A stretch of DNA of 64,000 bases from NCBI RefSeq assembly GCF_021134715.1, contig NC_060017.1, forward strand, positions 6,200,001 to 6,264,000. The letters are read 5' to 3'. Positions 39,001-58,358 of the stretch are shown piece by piece (within the stretch, counting starts at the first letter, position 1; every line of letters starts with the position of its first letter). The translations under genes were made by a program, and so were the position numbers. Source of the stretch: Daphnia pulex. Its lineage: Eukaryota > Arthropoda > Branchiopoda > Diplostraca > Daphniidae. The notes under the pieces were generated by a model. It worked only from the letters and a program-made list of their open reading frames with translations, had not been told where the DNA came from and did no database searches.

Positions 39001-41961
39001 TCGTAAGTTTTGAAGATGTGATTGCTGCGGAACCCGAACTTGAAGTCGCTGCACCGGAGATGGTTGAAGAGGAATCTCAAGCCGAAACAGTTCCAGGTAG
39101 TTGATTTATTTGACTAGTTTTTAAGTATTTAACAATTGTCAATCCTTTAAAATTCATTAATGGAACTGGTTGTTGCAGAAGCAGAGGTTAAAGAAGAAGT
39201 GATTGCTGAAGAGCCTGAAATTGAAGTCGCGCCAGAGATTTTCGAAGAGGTAGGTCAAGTGGAAGCCGATCAACCCATAGTAGAAGAAGCCACCAATGTG
39301 CCTGAAATTATTGAGGACTCTGTTGAAGAGCCAGAAGAAAACGTAGAACAAGAGCTTATTGAAAATGTGATAGAACCCGAGCTTGAAATAGCAACACCAG
39401 AGGTTTTCGAAGAAGAAGCCCAAGCCGATCAACCAACAGTTGATGTTGTGTTTAACGAAGTGGCAGAAGAAACTGTGCCTGAAACCGTCGAGTCTGCGGA
39501 AGAACAAATTATTGATGCCCCAGCACCAGAAGCTACACCAGAGTCGGATTACAGGTTCCTGTCGGAAGTAGAGGAAGAACAGGAGGTTGAAGAACCCCTC
39601 CAAGTAGCGACTGAAGCATTTGTCGTTGAGCCAGAAGTAGAACAAGTCGCCGTACCCGTAGCAGAATCTGTTAAAGATGCGCCATCGAGGATGCAAAATC
39701 TGGAGGAGGCCGATCGGCTTGTGGACCAGGTAAATTGAAAAAAAAAAAAAAAAAAAAAAAAAACATTAAAATATTTGGATAATATCAAAGTTAAAGTCGT
39801 AAGGCACTGCCCTTTTTCTTTTATCGAGTTGTCGAATGTCTCAGCTGCTCAAACGACAACTCGAAGTGAATATTAAATATCATTAAATGCATTTAATCTT
39901 CTATTCGCTAATTTCTGTAGGCTCCCCCAGCTGCATAAATATCTTCTATCTAAAAAAAAAAAAAATACTCCGAAAAACAAAAAAAAATCTGCCCCATTTT
40001 CTCCCCTGACTTTGATAGTGTCATGTTTGTAGAATTAATTTGGTCGTCGTAAGTGCCGATAATATCAAACAAATTTTTGACATTTTTTCTTGCCCTCCTT
40101 CTCATAATAGACAAAAACTGGTGTGGGTGTGAGGTTGTTTTGATGATGACGCTTGCAGACGAATGATCATTTACTTTTATGAGTTATTGGGGCTTATCTC
40201 TGTAAGGTTCGCGGTTTGTGTCTGAAATTAAACTCTGAGTTTTAAATGAAAAGAAGCGATATGTTGTCATTTCATCGTATGTTAGAATCCCTCCGCTGCT
40301 AACGTAGCACTTCTTTGTAGTAATCAATTCCTCTTTATCTTTTTGAATTTGATATTCTAGCGCATGAACTATTTAACCACTAATCATTTGTAAGAGCACG
40401 ATAAAAACGAATCACGAAGTTAAAAAGTGTTTGTGCAACATTTAACAAAAAAAAGCATTAAGATAATACAGGAATGGCTTTTTTGGAAAGTGTTTGAAAC
40501 ATTGAACCTTGAACCTTTGTGTCCGTCCCTTATTGCCTTGAATCCAGTCGCCAGCCCAGGCATTAGCTCTGATGGAACAGATTTTGGAGAAGGATCCCCT
40601 CAATGCGCTGGGCCTTTACGGCCGAGCTAGGAGCCTGGACTCACTCGCCGAAGTGGAAAGATCTAATGCTCGCTTGGAGCAGTCCGTCTTCGCTTACAGG
40701 GCTGTCCTAGATCTTGAAGACCAAGTTGATGATCAGCTTTATTTGAAAGCTGCTTTGCGCTGCATCGACCGGATGCGATTTAGAGGTAATTATGATGCTT
40801 ATTCAAAATTTTATGTAATTACTAATTATCTTTCTCATCTCCATAAAATAGGATTCCACGGCAAAGCCATCAGGATCCAGCAGAGACTCGTAGCCCGCTT
40901 CCCTAATGATATCCAATACCAGAATCAATTGGCTGTTGGTTTCCTTCTGACTAACCAACCCGAAGCCGCTCGAACAATTCTAGAAGGAGTGTTGGAGCGG
41001 TGGCCCAAGTCTGGTTTCGCTCAAGTTCATTTGGGCTTTATTCTGAAGACAACTTTCGAGGACTACGATGCCGGAGCTCGATGGATGATGGCAGGAATCG
41101 CATCTCGTGAAGAGGGAGTCATTGACGGCCGGTTTTACTCTCACCTGGGTGACGCCCTGACTCGATTAGGCAAACACCAAGAAGCCCAAAGGGTATTATT
41201 ATTCATTTGTTAACATTTGTTTGAAATGCAAATTTATCTTTTAAATGTTCAGGTCTACCTCGATGGAGAAAAGGAAGGTGTCTTTCTTTCTCATCAACAA
41301 CGTTCGCTTTACAATGTAGATCGCCTTACCGGCAAGCCCTGGTGGGACAAGGAGTCGACCACTTATGGGCATTTCTTTGATTTGTTGGAAGCTAACTGGC
41401 GACAAATTCGTAATGAAGGAGTCGCGTTATTGACGTTGGAAGCTCCTGAGGGTTTCGCAGATGAGTCGGAAAAATTACGAGATTCTGGAGACTGGAAACA
41501 ATATGAACTATTCGCGCAAGGCAGAAAGAATGCTGCACACTGCACTAAAGTATTAATTTGCATAACTTGTAACAATGGAATTCCCGACAGATGCTAGAGA
41601 CGTTCTTAATTATTTATAGGCTCCTGTAACGTGCACGCTGATTGAAAACTACCCACCTGCCCTTTGCAAACGGGGCCAAGTTAAGTTTAGCATAATGCAC
41701 CCAGGCACTCACGTTTGGCCTCACACTGGTCCAACTAATTGCCGAATCCGAGCTCATTTAGGTCTAGTCGTTCCTGGTGGAGCTCAGCTTAGAGTGGGCA
41801 ACACTACTGATACTTGGGAGGAGGGCAAGTTCATCATCTTCGATGACAGTTTCGAACATGAAGTCTGGCACAAAGGATCGTCTTATCGTTTGGTGCTCAT
41901 CGTTGACCTGTGGCATCCCGAACTGACAGCTGAAGAATGGCGGTCTCTGGCTCCTATTTGA
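36097..41961 (+). CDS. ASPH: aspartyl/asparaginyl beta-hydroxylase
   Basis: ER membrane 2-oxoglutarate/Fe(II) dioxygenase that hydroxylates Asp/Asn in EGF-like domains. Eleven exons (36097-36145, 36619-36726, 36973-37233, 37294-37659, 37730-38028, 38103-39096, 39179-39729, 40548-40785, 40852-41192, 41253-41549, 41620-41961) give 1281 aa, much longer than human ASPH (758). A short Lys-rich cytosolic start leads a single membrane helix (IVFLVLLSSLGMAIGVIFF). A very acidic luminal stalk of about 750 residues follows, with four tandem repeats in exon 6. TPR-like helices begin at exon 8. The catalytic domain has SLYNVDRL, HPGTHVWPHTGPTN (facial-triad His region), DDSFEHEVWH (second His), and SSYRLVLIVD with the 2-oxoglutarate-binding Arg. 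It ends LTAEEWRSLAPI. The 818-bp intron after exon 7 could allow a stalk-only isoform like vertebrate junctate. Confidence 0.95.
38430..39020 (+). repeat. in-frame tandem repeats in the ASPH stalk
   Basis: Four units of 150, 150, 147 and about 145 bp begin near 38430, 38580, 38730 and 38877. Each encodes about 49-50 residues following the pattern TVVESIPDS, then VELIPE, DSSTESVVETEPE and VVV-EDVIATEP. All unit lengths are multiples of three or keep frame, and the units differ by scattered point changes. Confidence 0.85.
39738..39763. repeat. A26 homopolymer in ASPH intron 7
   Basis: Twenty-six consecutive A residues begin nine bases after the exon 7 donor. No target-site duplication or transposon body is seen next to it. 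Confidence 0.9.
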
Positions 41962-51039: not shown

Positions 51040-51899
51040 ATGCGGTGGCACGTGGCCACACTCGCCGCCGTCTGGCTTATTATTATGGGTTGGTGCGGTA
51101 GCGCAGTGATGGGGCAGCCCATCGCCGGATCGATGGATCAGCCGCATCCGCCACATCATCCTCCAGCCGGACAGACCATTCCTGAAATGTGGGCTCTGAT
51201 GGATCCCGCGGACGGGCCCCCCGACACAATTCGAGATGGCGATGATTTAAATGGTGACCTTTATTATTTCCCTGCCGTTCCAATCATGAAGAGACAACAA
51301 AGTTTAGACGACGATTCCGGCTGGATATCCCAGGTAAATTGATTTTTCTTTTTCCCTTTTTTTCTTTTTTCAATTTTATTCTTTTTCTTGTTCATGATCC
51401 GTATTTAAGTTTGTAGTTAATTCCATTGCCCGCATTGATTTTTAGCATGTAAAAATACCCGAGAATGTTTGTGATTGATGTTTGATGTTGAACCCCTTAT
51501 TCGATAAATTAAAAGGATCGTTCGAAACGCCAGAGCCAATCACACAGCGGCTCGTCCGGAAATCATCACTCGCAGTTATCCATCATTAGTCCGATTGAAG
51601 CTTTACGCAGTCGGCTCCGATTGGAGATGCTTCGCCGTCAATATGGCAACCAAATCAAACAGAACCAGGACAAGCTCGAAAGGGTCGGCAAACGCCGTAA
51701 GAGGAGCAACCAATCTTCTCCTATCGCCGTTGATGGGTAAGATATCTACGTTATACCTCTTGACATTTGTTGGAGAGGCCACCATTTTAATTTGAGAGGT
51801 TAGAGCCTATCATAATTCAATTTTTGCATGTTTGGCAGATCGGATGAGAAACGGATGAGCCAGCCGTCGGTAGCACCAGCAGCGATCAAAGCACCATAA
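51040..51899 (+). CDS. Dh44: CRF-like diuretic hormone (DH44) precursor
   Basis: Prepro-neuropeptide of 191 aa; the mature peptide should act on a class B GPCR to raise cAMP and drive fluid secretion. Coding exons: 51040-51333, 51516-51736, 51839-51899, with the non-coding 5' part of the first beginning at 51008. A signal peptide (HVATLAAVWLIIMGW, cleavage near AVMG-QP) leads a spacer. A dibasic SKR site precedes the hormone, which begins QSQSHSGSSGNHHS and carries the family core LSIISPIEALRSRLRLEML followed by QIKQNQDKLERVG and KRRKR. The Gly before Lys-Arg is an amidation signal, giving a 52-residue amide; N-terminal Gln may cyclise. LSI-P-(V/E)LR-R shows the CRF/DH44 signature. The peptide is longer at its N-terminus than insect DH44 (about 44-46 aa). 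Confidence 0.92.
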
Positions 51900-53664
51900 C
51901 ATCTCTTGACCGGAACGGGCCAAGAGCTAACACAAACACACACCACGAGGTCAGTTTAGAATTCGATTAGATGTTAAAGAGAGAAAAACTTTTATTTTAT
52001 AGCGGAAAGAAAATGAAAAAAAGAAATAAAATTTTCCAATTGGCAAAGTTTGAGCTGGAGATTAAATTTCCGTTTCCGTTTTTTTTCTTTCTTTATTGAT
52101 TTCAGATTTAGTACCTAGGAGACACACGGCAAGACTGGTAACCACTACAAAGAAACAGAGGGAACGCGACAAAACATTTATACATACAAGGATCAAGGAA
52201 TGAGGTTTTAATTGACGAGGATGATCTTATATTTCTCCCAAAATCCCTTTACTTTCCCCAGACCCTTGATATTTGTTCTTGTTTTTAATTATAATATTGC
52301 ACTGTGCCCCCTCTCCGGAAACAACGTCTTAAAATTGACACACAGCCCTCCCTTATTCTCCCATTATATATATATTGTAACGACACATTTAATTGAATAT
52401 GCGCGCCCACTCTCCTTGTGAAGAGAGATTTGAAAAGACGACAAAAAAAAACAAGAAATCCACCGACAGATTTATTACTTATATAATATTGTAAGCCTCC
52501 GTCATTGTTGCTAACATAAAAAAAAAATACGATATATGTTATCCCTCTTTGTGCTGAATCAGTATTTCACCCACACCGTAATTAAATGCTTTTCCTTTCG
52601 GTGTCTCTTTATCCTACGATAGTACATGTTTAAAATTCACAATCGATATTTATTTTTGGATTGTTATGGTTTGCTTTTTATTGATTAAAAGCGAAACAAA
52701 AGAAAAGAAGAGATGAACGGGATTCGTCTTCGTACTACGACGATACGCGCAACGAGAATTTTGCACTTTCAATCCCGCTATAAAGTCATATAAATTGGTG
52801 TGATAACGAATGAAATTTTATTCAAACCCACGAACTTCTTCTCTCTCAAGTAGTTGGAGATTCTAGCTGTATCCCGGGATAAGCAAATTTTTGTGTTGCC
52901 CTTTAGAACCTGGTCAGCGGTCACATTTCGTCTGATGCTCCGTTTATTCTCTTTCTTCCGTTTGAATTCGCAATAGCCTGAAACCTTTTACCCACCGTTT
53001 ATGGCTTCTATGGCAGCGTATTATTGTAAAAGTTTTTATTTATTTTTTCAAACTCTATGAAGAATTCCGAGAACGCCAATCGAGATCGATAAAAGTGATA
53101 GCTTGGGAATAGATTGGGATTTCAACGACCACATCAAAAATGGTTTTTAAAGTAGGATACATTTAAAGGAAATCAACACTATTTTTCTATTTAAAACAAA
53201 AACAGTTTAGTCAAGTAGAACTTGCCGCGCAGCAAGGGATCTGGTTATAATTCGTCACTATAATATACATGCCGAAGGCCAAGCCTGACTGAGTTGACTG
53301 AGTGGACTGAGATATTTTATAGTTTCAACTTCTGCCGCTACGTGGTCAGGCGAGTTCACTGGCCTTTTTTGTAGCCTTCTTGTTAGAAGTTGAATAACAC
53401 CTTCAGTAAATCAGCAGTTCGGTAAAGTTCATCGTGAAGAAATCAAAAAAACAATCGTAAGGTACGGTACGTGAAATTTAACGTTTATTATTTAAAAGTA
53501 GATGCTTTCACATATTTACTTCCATTCGACACGCAATCAAAAAAATTTAAAAAAAAAGAAATCACATTCAATTTCTTGTCAAAATCTTTAAAATTTTAAC
53601 ACGTTCGACACCATGCACTTCAGATTCTATCGTATTTCTTATTTCATTGCAGAAAAGGGCTGGA
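51900..53664. other. DH44-like 3'UTR and spacer
   Basis: The first part is 3'UTR, possibly with an intron (donor near 51949, acceptor near 52105). AATAAA occurs at 52026. From about 53340 the sequence is upstream or 5'UTR of the COX14-like/MCEE transcription unit, with an acceptor (TTGCAG) at 53652. A TGACTGAG motif is repeated three times near 53287-53312. Confidence 0.45.
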
Positions 53665-53928
53665 ATGAAACGAAACCGAGTGCGAGTAGAGAAGATCTTA
53701 GATACTGTTCATCGAAGTATTGTTTTGGGTTGTGTTGGCTTGACTGTGTATGGTTTCTACCTCGCAGGTCTCCGATTCCATAGATTCTATACTGTCCTGA
53801 AACCAGCAGGAGAGGAGAGAAAACGTCTCAAGGAACTGGAACTACTCTCTGAGGGCCAAGATAAATCAGCCGACAGCCAAGAGTTTTTTCTCCCTGAAAT
53901 ACCAAAATTAGACAAAGAAAAGTTTTAG
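53665..53928 (+). CDS. COX14-like small mitochondrial inner-membrane protein
   Basis: An 87-residue protein with one membrane helix (SIVLGCVGLTVYGFYLAGLR) and a charged C-terminal tail. LTVYGFYLAGLRFHRFY parallels LTVYGGYLCSVRVYHYF of human COX14, an assembly factor needed for COX1 translation and complex IV assembly. COX14 proteins are 57-80 aa; the extra length is in the tail (EFFLPEIPKLDKEKF). The start ATG at 53665 follows an acceptor ending at 53652. The stop lies just 13 nt before the methylmalonyl-CoA epimerase start, with no splice site or promoter room between, so both are probably on one mRNA. The COX14 assignment rests on one short motif. Confidence 0.6.
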   Translation: MKRNRVRVEKILDTVHRSIVLGCVGLTVYGFYLAGLRFHRFYTVLKPAGEERKRLKELELLSEGQDKSADSQEFFLPEIPKLDKEKF

Positions 53929-53941
53929 AAAAAAGAAAAAT

Positions 53942-54473
53942 ATGGCCTCTGTATGTAACATGTTATTTAAAAGGTCTTTTACATCAAAGTCTGTGCCAGA
54001 AGCTCTTTGGAAACTGGGAAGACTCAATCATATCGCCATAGCAACTCCTGATTTAGCTAAATCTGCCTCACTATACAAAAACATCTTGGGAGCTGATATA
54101 TCAGAACCCCAACATCTTCCTAATCATGGAGTCACAACTGTATTCGTCAACTTGGGAAACACTAAACTAGAGCTCCTTCATCCTTTAGGAGAAAAATCAC
54201 CAATTCAGGTTTATACTGTTTACAGTTAGTTTTTTCAATTGAAATATTAAATAATGTGTTCTGTAACAGGGTTTTCTGGACAAAAACAAGTCTGGAGGTC
54301 TTCATCATATCTGCATTGAAGTTGACAATATTCACAACGCTATGAAAGAGTTAAAAGCTAAAGGTATCCGCTGTCTGACGGATGAACCTCGAATTGGAGC
54401 CCATGAAAAGCCTGTTGTATTTCTTCATCCTAAAGACTGTGCCGGAGTTCTTGTCGAATTGGAACAATCGTAG
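53942..54473 (+). CDS. MCEE: methylmalonyl-CoA epimerase, mitochondrial
   Basis: Converts (2S)- to (2R)-methylmalonyl-CoA in propionate, odd-chain fatty acid and branched amino acid breakdown, between propionyl-CoA carboxylase and methylmalonyl-CoA mutase. Exons 53942-54208 and 54270-54473 give 156 aa. The first 22 residues (ASVCNMLFKRSFTSKS) look like a mitochondrial presequence. The vicinal-oxygen-chelate fold shows its metal ligands: His in LNHIAIATPD, His in GGLHHICIEVD and Glu in GVLVELEQS. PRIGAHEKPVVFLHPKDC is the conserved C-terminal segment. It is the second cistron of the unit that starts with the COX14-like frame. Confidence 0.95.
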
Positions 54474-55644: not shown

Positions 55645-58358
55645 TTACAATGGATGAGCAGCAGAACCTTCTCTATCATCGATGAAACTGCCGTCATGGT
55701 GATGCTGGTTCAGACTCGGTGGGCTAGAGCCCCTGGCAGGACTGGCGTGTTGCCCAGCAGGAATCATCGATAGGCTCTTTCTTCTGGACAGCATAGGCGA
55801 AGAAGAAAAGGCTTCTTCTGTTGTATAAACGTCTATAAATACGATTCCAAGAAGAAGAAAAAATATTATTACAATTTAACAACAGGAAACAAGCAAGTGG
55901 CTATTAAATAGAAGTTACCTGGATGGATTGTTTGATGAGGAATACTGAGATTGTCCAGGTAGAGATGATTTGAAACCGATGCATCGTTACCCATAATCAT
56001 ACTTTGAGCTGAAGCCCCGGCACCCAAGGTAATGAGGTCATGAGCCAAAGCCAAAGTGTGATCGTCAATTAATGATAAGTCACTCAGATCGGATTCTGGA
56101 TGACCAACGCCACCCATTGTTGCGCTTTCGGCTACAGCTAGAACACGCTCCAACTCTTCAGCTTCTTCGCGGCTTGGCATGGGAACAAATAGACCGTTAC
56201 GAGATGAAGAAGCAGCAGCTTGTGTCATGGCAAATATCTCCTAATTGTTTTAAAATATTCCCGTTATTCTAAATTGACTCACACATACGAAGTTAAGAGT
56301 TTACGAACCTGAAAGGCTTCGTCAGGCAGACGGTTGAGCAACTCTTTTAAGTCGTGATCTTCTAGAATTTCCGCTTCATGATCAACAGAAGCCGCCATAG
56401 GATTGATAACAGGGTGTGCAGTGTGAGGTATCAATTGTGCCGGCGTTGGATAGGCTGGTGAACAGTTTTCGGGACTATCAACAGTCTCCACATCTAGTTC
56501 CATTCCATTGTCGGCTGCTTCGATGCAGTGGATACGAGTCTCACTTCCTCCACTGGACCCAATTCGCTTAGCTCGGCGACGATTGCGAAGTCGGCGAGAA
56601 TGACGTCCCAATGACGAAGTTGAGCGGGAACGTGCTTTTCTTCGATTGGTTTTACTGGACACACTTCCTTGGTTACCTCCATTGTTACTCATTTGGTCGC
56701 TGCCTTCGACATTTTTAGGTGTATTGGCTGAAGCCGAAGAACTGTTACCATTTCCGTCACCTTGAACAGCATGTGCTGGACAATATGGTAGGCCTGAATG
56801 AATAGCCAAAACTGGGGCTCCGCACGGTGTTGAACCTAGAAGATTGTGATCAAACGATTAAAATGGTTTTCAAGGTATAATATTTGGAAAACTATTACCT
56901 GATCCTCCTCGAGCAGAGCAAAATTCAAACAACTGTTGATCAACGCTATAAAGGATGTGTCGACTGCACAGCGTTGAGCAGGGCAAACAGAACTCGGGGC
57001 ATCCAGAGTCCGTTGTAAGATGACCTGAACTGGCGCGACGAAAGCTGCACCGACGTTTGGAGAAGATCTTTAGACTGGAAGGATTGAATCCAGTCGAGGA
57101 GCTAGTGGGATTGCGTCCTTGCAGCAACAAACCAGTCTCATTTGGAAAGCGACGAGCCGCTTCTACGAGTTTATTAATAACAGTTGACTGATACTCGCCA
57201 CGGAACTTTTCTTCTGCATCGATCGTTTGGGCAAATTGGAGATATCTGTGTCGAAATTCTCTTTTGCTTCGCTCTAGCTTTACTGCCCGAGGAGCGTCCG
57301 TTGTGGAACGGAGTGGAATAGCAGAGATGTATTGAGATAAACCACCACCAAAAGAAGAACTTTCTTCGTCATCCGATTCATCAATAGGTTTAGGCAAGAG
57401 GTACTGGGTTTTGTTCCCATTAATTGAATTATCTAGCTGTTGTAAAACGGCTGGAAGTGGATAAATTCCTCCAGATGGTTTCAGTGCCACTGTACTAATA
57501 ATGGGTTTCTTCTTTCTTGATATTATGATAGATTTCGACTTGACCTCCGACTTTATCCGAGAGTTGGCTTTCATACCATTACTACCCAAGGGTGGTACAG
57601 CAGGTAAACTTTTGCAAACATTGATTTCAGTGTTACTGTCAACACTACTGCTGCTGGTACTGCTTGGAGTCAATGGTTCAATAACCAATGGACTATTGTG
57701 AGGTGGGTTATTCATATCTGAGGGTTTTTGGTGGATTTCAGACAGAATCTGGTCTGGTTTGGTAATGAGCTCAGTGTCATCACTGAATGTGTATGGATCT
57801 CCATCACTCATCTCCATAGAAGAAGATGTTGGTTCATTAGATTGATTGCTCATTTTTTCATTGGGTGAAGATGCAGAATAATTTTGGCCATTTTCCTTCT
57901 TTGTATGCCTGCGGTCTCTTTTAGCTGCAGGAAAACCAGCTAATTGAAGATGGGTATTGCACAGCCTAAAAATCAAAATTTACATTATGTTTAAGATTAA
58001 GACATTTCCAGAGTCACAATGCAGATTTTAGGTAACAAAAAAGCATCACAACTTCTAAATAGCATACCCTTTTGGATGAGCCATGGAAATTACATTAGTA
58101 CACTTGTTTTGACCAGTAGATGCCACAAACGAGCAAACTCGGAATGGAGCAGAAGAATCTTCAAGAATATGTCTAAAATGTCAAGAATTTGATTGCTTTA
58201 TATGGCATATCAGTCACATTTTTGTAAAAGTAATAAGTTACAAACCTGATGCAGAAAGCAAAGCCATTAAGCCTCCTTTGCCGACAAAGTTTGGTTGAGA
58301 AAGAACATAGTGGTTTCTGGTCAACAGGACTGAAATGAATATGTTTTCCTTCAAACAT
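55645..58358 (-). CDS. INO80D: INO80 complex subunit D
   Basis: Metazoan-specific subunit of the INO80 chromatin remodelling complex. Six exons on the minus strand (58246-58358, 58068-58172, 56899-57965, 56309-56835, 55919-56237, 55645-55832) give 772 aa. The N-terminus MFEGKHIHFSPVDQKPLCSF and CRQRRLNGFAFCIRHIL match the first zinc-knuckle-like potential DNA-binding domain of INO80D and KANSL2 (human MYEGKHIHFSELDNKPLCSY). The first domain continues with CSFVASTGQNKCTN and CNTHLQ. A second such domain is in exons 3-4: CSTLCSRHILYSVDQQLFEFC and STPCGAPV...CPAHAV. Near the end, EEAEELERVLAVAES matches the human TEEAEELERALQAV. The basic run RRLRNRRRAKR may be a nuclear signal. It is shorter than the vertebrate protein (about 1,000 aa). 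Confidence 0.92.

Follow-up and report, generated by a model that had tools for sequence, protein, structure and literature searches.

In the Daphnia pulex genome, a COX14-like frame and the gene for methylmalonyl-CoA epimerase (MCEE) follow one another on the same strand with almost no space between them, raising the question of whether one mRNA carries both and, if so, how ribosomes reach the second. We examined this locus within a 64,000-nt stretch of DNA (the window; C1:6200001-6264000) and searched the whole assembly, 133,188,837 bases in 13 contigs, for further copies of both genes. The coordinates, the strand, the length of the first frame and the 13-nt gap given in a preliminary description of this DNA were all borne out by the sequence and by a check of its open reading frames (Table 1). 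The two coding frames do not overlap, belong to known families and differ in reading frame, and the gap between them is A-rich.

The families named in that description were confirmed as well, each by a profile match above its cut-off. The first frame (ORF1) matched the Pfam COX14 profile (PF14880) with an E value of 5.6e-16 and 58.5 bits (cut-off 25) over residues 3-57, and its hydropathy plot contained one hydrophobic segment, peaking at residues 18-36. It resembles the family in both respects, whereas about 30 residues at its C-terminus fall beyond the profile. No relative of ORF1 was found among PDB sequences (best E 0.37) or in the viral contigs scanned, and NCBIfam, a prokaryote-centred library, gave no match at E 0.01. 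By its family, ORF1 is COX14-like and would be a putative inner-membrane assembly factor for complex IV.

The second protein, 156 aa after splicing, matched the equivalog profile TIGR03081 at 186.3 bits (cut-off 114.95) along its full length (1-129 of 129), and the human MCEE structure 3rmu with an E value of 2.9e-61. Its N-terminus resembles, by eye, a mitochondrial presequence. The preliminary description had placed the end of the gene correctly but did not mention the 61-nt intron within it. We scored splice sites with a model that started from a general consensus and was then refined on 187 introns found in 254 kb of the genome; percentiles from this model lean towards that consensus, since it served as the seed and only introns above a total score were kept. 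On this scale the MCEE donor and acceptor stood at the 63rd and 65th percentiles. Apart from the gene layout, we saw nothing notable to distinguish this full-profile match, close to human MCEE, from animal MCEE in general.

Table 1. Features of the COX14-MCEE locus, in window coordinates.
Feature	Position	Strand	Remarks
Predicted 5′ leader exon	53340..53466	+	both ends uncertain; left end guessed
Predicted 5′ UTR intron	53467..53652	+	acceptor tatttcttatttcattgcag; left end uncertain
COX14-like CDS (ORF1)	53665-53928	+	264 nt, 87 aa, stop TAG
Intercistronic gap	53929-53941	+	13 nt, AAAAAAGAAAAAT
MCEE coding exon 1	53942-54208	+	includes start ATG 53942; TIGR03081 and 3rmu matches
MCEE intron	54209-54269	+	61 nt, GT..AG; flanking exons join in phase
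MCEE coding exon 2	54270-54473	+	includes stop (54471-54473); TIGR03081 and 3rmu matches

Elsewhere in the window, an ORF with a zf-C3Hc3H domain (56870-57853, minus strand; 30.3 bits, cut-off 27) lies downstream of MCEE on the opposite strand. A 100-aa ORF at 51040-51342 (plus strand) has a start that looks by eye like a signal peptide, and gave no Pfam match at E 0.01.

Searches of the whole assembly yielded a single COX14 match over the cut-off, together with a weak one (E 0.175, one internal stop), and a single MCEE gene, recovered as two exon matches, together with a weak match containing three stops (E 0.29). With one convincing copy of each found in the assembly, this locus probably supplies both products. 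Matches to the MM_CoA_mutase profile were detected elsewhere, seven on contig C12 and five on contig C10. Human MMUT was the best hit of the exon checked on C12 (E 5e-52, 177.3 bits over 107 aa) and of the one checked on C10 (74.5 bits over 65 aa, fewer bits per residue than on C12). Methylmalonyl-CoA mutase exons are thus present in the genome, and with them the pathway step that follows MCEE. The second set of mutase matches (C10:10550526-10551658, minus strand) may be a paralogue or a decaying copy.

Could two such frames lie this close by chance? With the 222 ORFs that start with ATG and reach 80 aa or more across 508 kb of strand as background, we calculated that a randomly chosen position would have one of them ending 0-13 nt upstream in about 0.6% of cases. 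Tandem ORFs by themselves are not rare: nine pairs with gaps of 0-30 nt occurred in the same 508 kb, the COX14-MCEE pair included, and by eye the other eight resembled either consecutive exons belonging to a single gene or frames that do not code. We therefore judge the COX14-MCEE pair to be real because of its two separate matches to unrelated families, and not because of its spacing alone. Among the tandem frames seen, two at 40572-41594 of the window (plus strand), 12 nt apart, resemble by eye successive exons of one gene, putatively of the aspartyl beta-hydroxylase type, and adjoining frames at L022:4957-5659 (plus strand) resemble by eye pieces of a reverse-transcriptase retroelement.

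We propose a single mRNA that bears both coding frames, the COX14-like one ahead of MCEE, and whose 5′ leader probably contains an intron. The AG at 53652, 12 nt upstream of the ORF1 ATG, scored 11.4 bits (91st percentile of the 187 training introns), the highest among the AGs listed in 53400-53945, and would serve as the acceptor of this leader intron. Candidate donors were identified at 53466 (6.2, 43rd percentile), 53497 (6.5, 47th), 53461 (5.1, 24th), 53405 (5.0, 21st) and 53421 (4.6, 19th). ATGs at 53502 and 53613 fall within the predicted intron, and no ATG occurs across 53281-53497. Since joining any of the candidate donors to 53652 would remove the former two and leave an ATG-free stretch upstream, the ORF1 AUG would be the first in the mature message. 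Use of the AG at 53501 (7.1, 33rd percentile), or retention of the intron, would instead keep both ATGs in the leader.

The preliminary description had also put forward a shared transcript, citing the short gap with no splice site, poly(A) signal or room for a promoter in it. The lack of a splice site was supported for the AGs immediately ahead of MCEE: 16 of the 16 ending in 53811-53941, the stop-codon AG at 53928 among them, scored 0.4 or less, while the lowest training acceptor scored 2.82. The statement proved too broad for the region as a whole, given an AG at 53767, inside ORF1, with 6.0 bits (21st percentile). Another at 53809 scored 4.3 (8th percentile), and either of the two, if used, would remove the ORF1 start. 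Alternative splicing might then divide the products, one leader donor being joined either to 53652, giving a COX14 mRNA in which MCEE is perhaps silent, or to an acceptor within ORF1 such as 53767, which comes after the ORF1 start and also after an AUG at 53750 and would leave the MCEE AUG first. An unseeded expectation-maximisation splice model (74 introns) favoured such an outcome over a single mRNA, since it ranked 53809 top of all (100th percentile), with 53652 only at its 78th percentile; we dropped this model for its unrealistic consensus. However, 53767 is weaker than 53652 by 5.4 bits, and strong AGs are no commoner in 53667-53941 than chance would provide: among the 27 AGs ending there, one reached at least 6 bits and two at least 4 bits, compared with 1.6 and 3.7 expected from the genome-wide background rate. 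Alternative splicing therefore seems to us an unlikely source of MCEE expression, and the shared transcript stands as the best reading, with the reservation that splicing to 53767 could bypass ORF1.

The 277 nt between the ORF1 and MCEE starts could also accommodate a second promoter within the ORF1 exon, which would yield a separate MCEE mRNA with a short leader and make the two genes merely tightly packed neighbours. Yet transcripts started upstream would contain the two frames all the same, except where they terminated in ORF1 or in the gap, and a search of 53661-54245 for five poly(A)-signal words found no occurrence. We regard a second promoter as improbable. Since 13 nt is too short for a poly(A) site plus a promoter, and since the nearby AGs are very poor acceptors, the sequence of the locus is best read as encoding a shared mRNA, and in our judgement it is likely that one transcript carries both the COX14-like frame and MCEE.

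A shared precursor could in principle be resolved as an operon, with spliced-leader trans-splicing ahead of MCEE. Spliced leaders were trimmed from an amphipod crustacean transcriptome, according to the available portion of the report (PMC5111886). The AGs directly before MCEE argue against such processing here, all of them scoring below the lowest training acceptor. Searching the assembly for two amphipod leaders with two mismatches allowed returned one match each, compared with one and six for reversed-pattern controls, and Rfam SL1 gave no match among the 50 scored of 31,019 first-look candidates; these tests cover amphipod-type leaders and Rfam SL1, and an unrelated leader would escape them. 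The accessible part of PMC3796463 yielded nothing on Daphnia spliced leaders. Trans-splicing at this site is, in our estimation, highly improbable.

If both frames are on one mRNA, MCEE translation has to be accounted for. We propose that ribosomes scanning from the cap would first meet the ORF1 start (TGGA-ATG-A), that a share of them would bypass it and also skip the AUG at 53750, and that these would then initiate at the MCEE AUG (AAAT-ATG-G). At positions -3 and +4 the MCEE start carries A and G, respectively, and the ORF1 start G and A. The lone AUG between them, at 53750, has T at -3 and G at +4 and opens a 16-codon frame in the MCEE register. Leaky scanning is favoured by the context of the MCEE start compared with that of ORF1 and by the presence of one intervening AUG only; at the same time, the ORF1 start is not clearly weak, since it has a purine (G) at -3. 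The scarcity of AUGs in ORF1 was not a significant signature of leaky scanning, as synonymous permutations contained at most one out-of-frame ATG in 89% of cases. Further controls on AUG scarcity were likewise not significant: P was 0.17 in a Markov control and 0.16 to 0.43 for a leader lacking ATGs. The complete model, a shared mRNA with leaky scanning to MCEE, appears probable to us, as a matter of judgement and not as a computed figure.

Other routes to the second start were weighed against leaky scanning. Reinitiation after a frame of 87 codons, with 13 nt for reacquiring initiation factors, would be inefficient; some reinitiation may nonetheless contribute to MCEE translation. The junction might harbour a structured internal ribosome entry site that drives MCEE, for which the A-rich gap offers a hint and otherwise nothing specific. 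But the 119 nt around the junction gave a folding z of 0.51, and 142 of 200 shuffles folded as well or better, in a test that bears on structured entry sites and that an unstructured one would escape. We consider a structured entry site to be very improbable.

A frameshift fusion of ORF1 with MCEE was considered and rejected as unlikely. The MCEE frame contains a stop at 53909, upstream of both the MCEE ATG and the ORF1 stop, so that any slip would be confined to the last few codons of ORF1. Fusion would also bury the presequence-like N-terminus of MCEE.

The closest likeness that we found to the proposed leaky scanning from a COX14-like frame to MCEE is the Drosophila sloth1/sloth2 locus, for which, in the text available (PMC9681215), a bicistronic mRNA with a 5-nt gap has been demonstrated and reporter tests support leaky scanning. 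Sloth1 and Sloth2 are described there as likely distant paralogues that act together on complex III. In both loci the first frame encodes a small protein with one membrane segment, predicted in the COX14-like case, and a role in respiratory-complex assembly, putative in that case, and a second mitochondrial protein follows a few nt on, in another frame and with a better start context. The loci differ in that the fly proteins are paralogues separated by 5 nt, whereas the COX14-like protein and the epimerase are unrelated, separated by 13 nt and predicted from genome sequence to share an mRNA.

Drosophila upstream ORFs encoding conserved peptides offer a further parallel, with CG12788/CG17767 with Tim9b upstream and the MOCS2 transcript CG10238 as cases in the sections available of PMC2276209. 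As here, the first frame encodes a conserved product, and the same sections report conserved upstream frames preferentially in mRNAs of mitochondrial proteins. The COX14-MCEE pair was not among the genes named in 12 of the 21 places of that paper, and no description of it was found in the open-licence literature, represented partly by titles and the first lines of abstracts. A bicistronic mRNA with a small mitochondrial protein encoded first is an established kind in arthropods; the pairing of COX14 with MCEE was not found described.

The suggestion that joint expression links complex IV assembly to propionate breakdown is speculation and unsupported. That the COX14-MCEE mRNA represents an old regulatory unit, conserved in crustaceans or more widely, in which translation of COX14 sets epimerase output through competition for scanning ribosomes, is a quite doubtful proposition. 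If shown at the RNA level and found to be conserved, the arrangement would add a case in which a single animal mRNA encodes two mitochondrial proteins that are well defined and unrelated to each other. It would, if true, agree with the preference for mitochondrial mRNAs reported earlier for conserved upstream frames, serve as a warning for gene annotation, which tends towards one frame per mRNA, and provide a simple test case for leaky scanning beyond insects.
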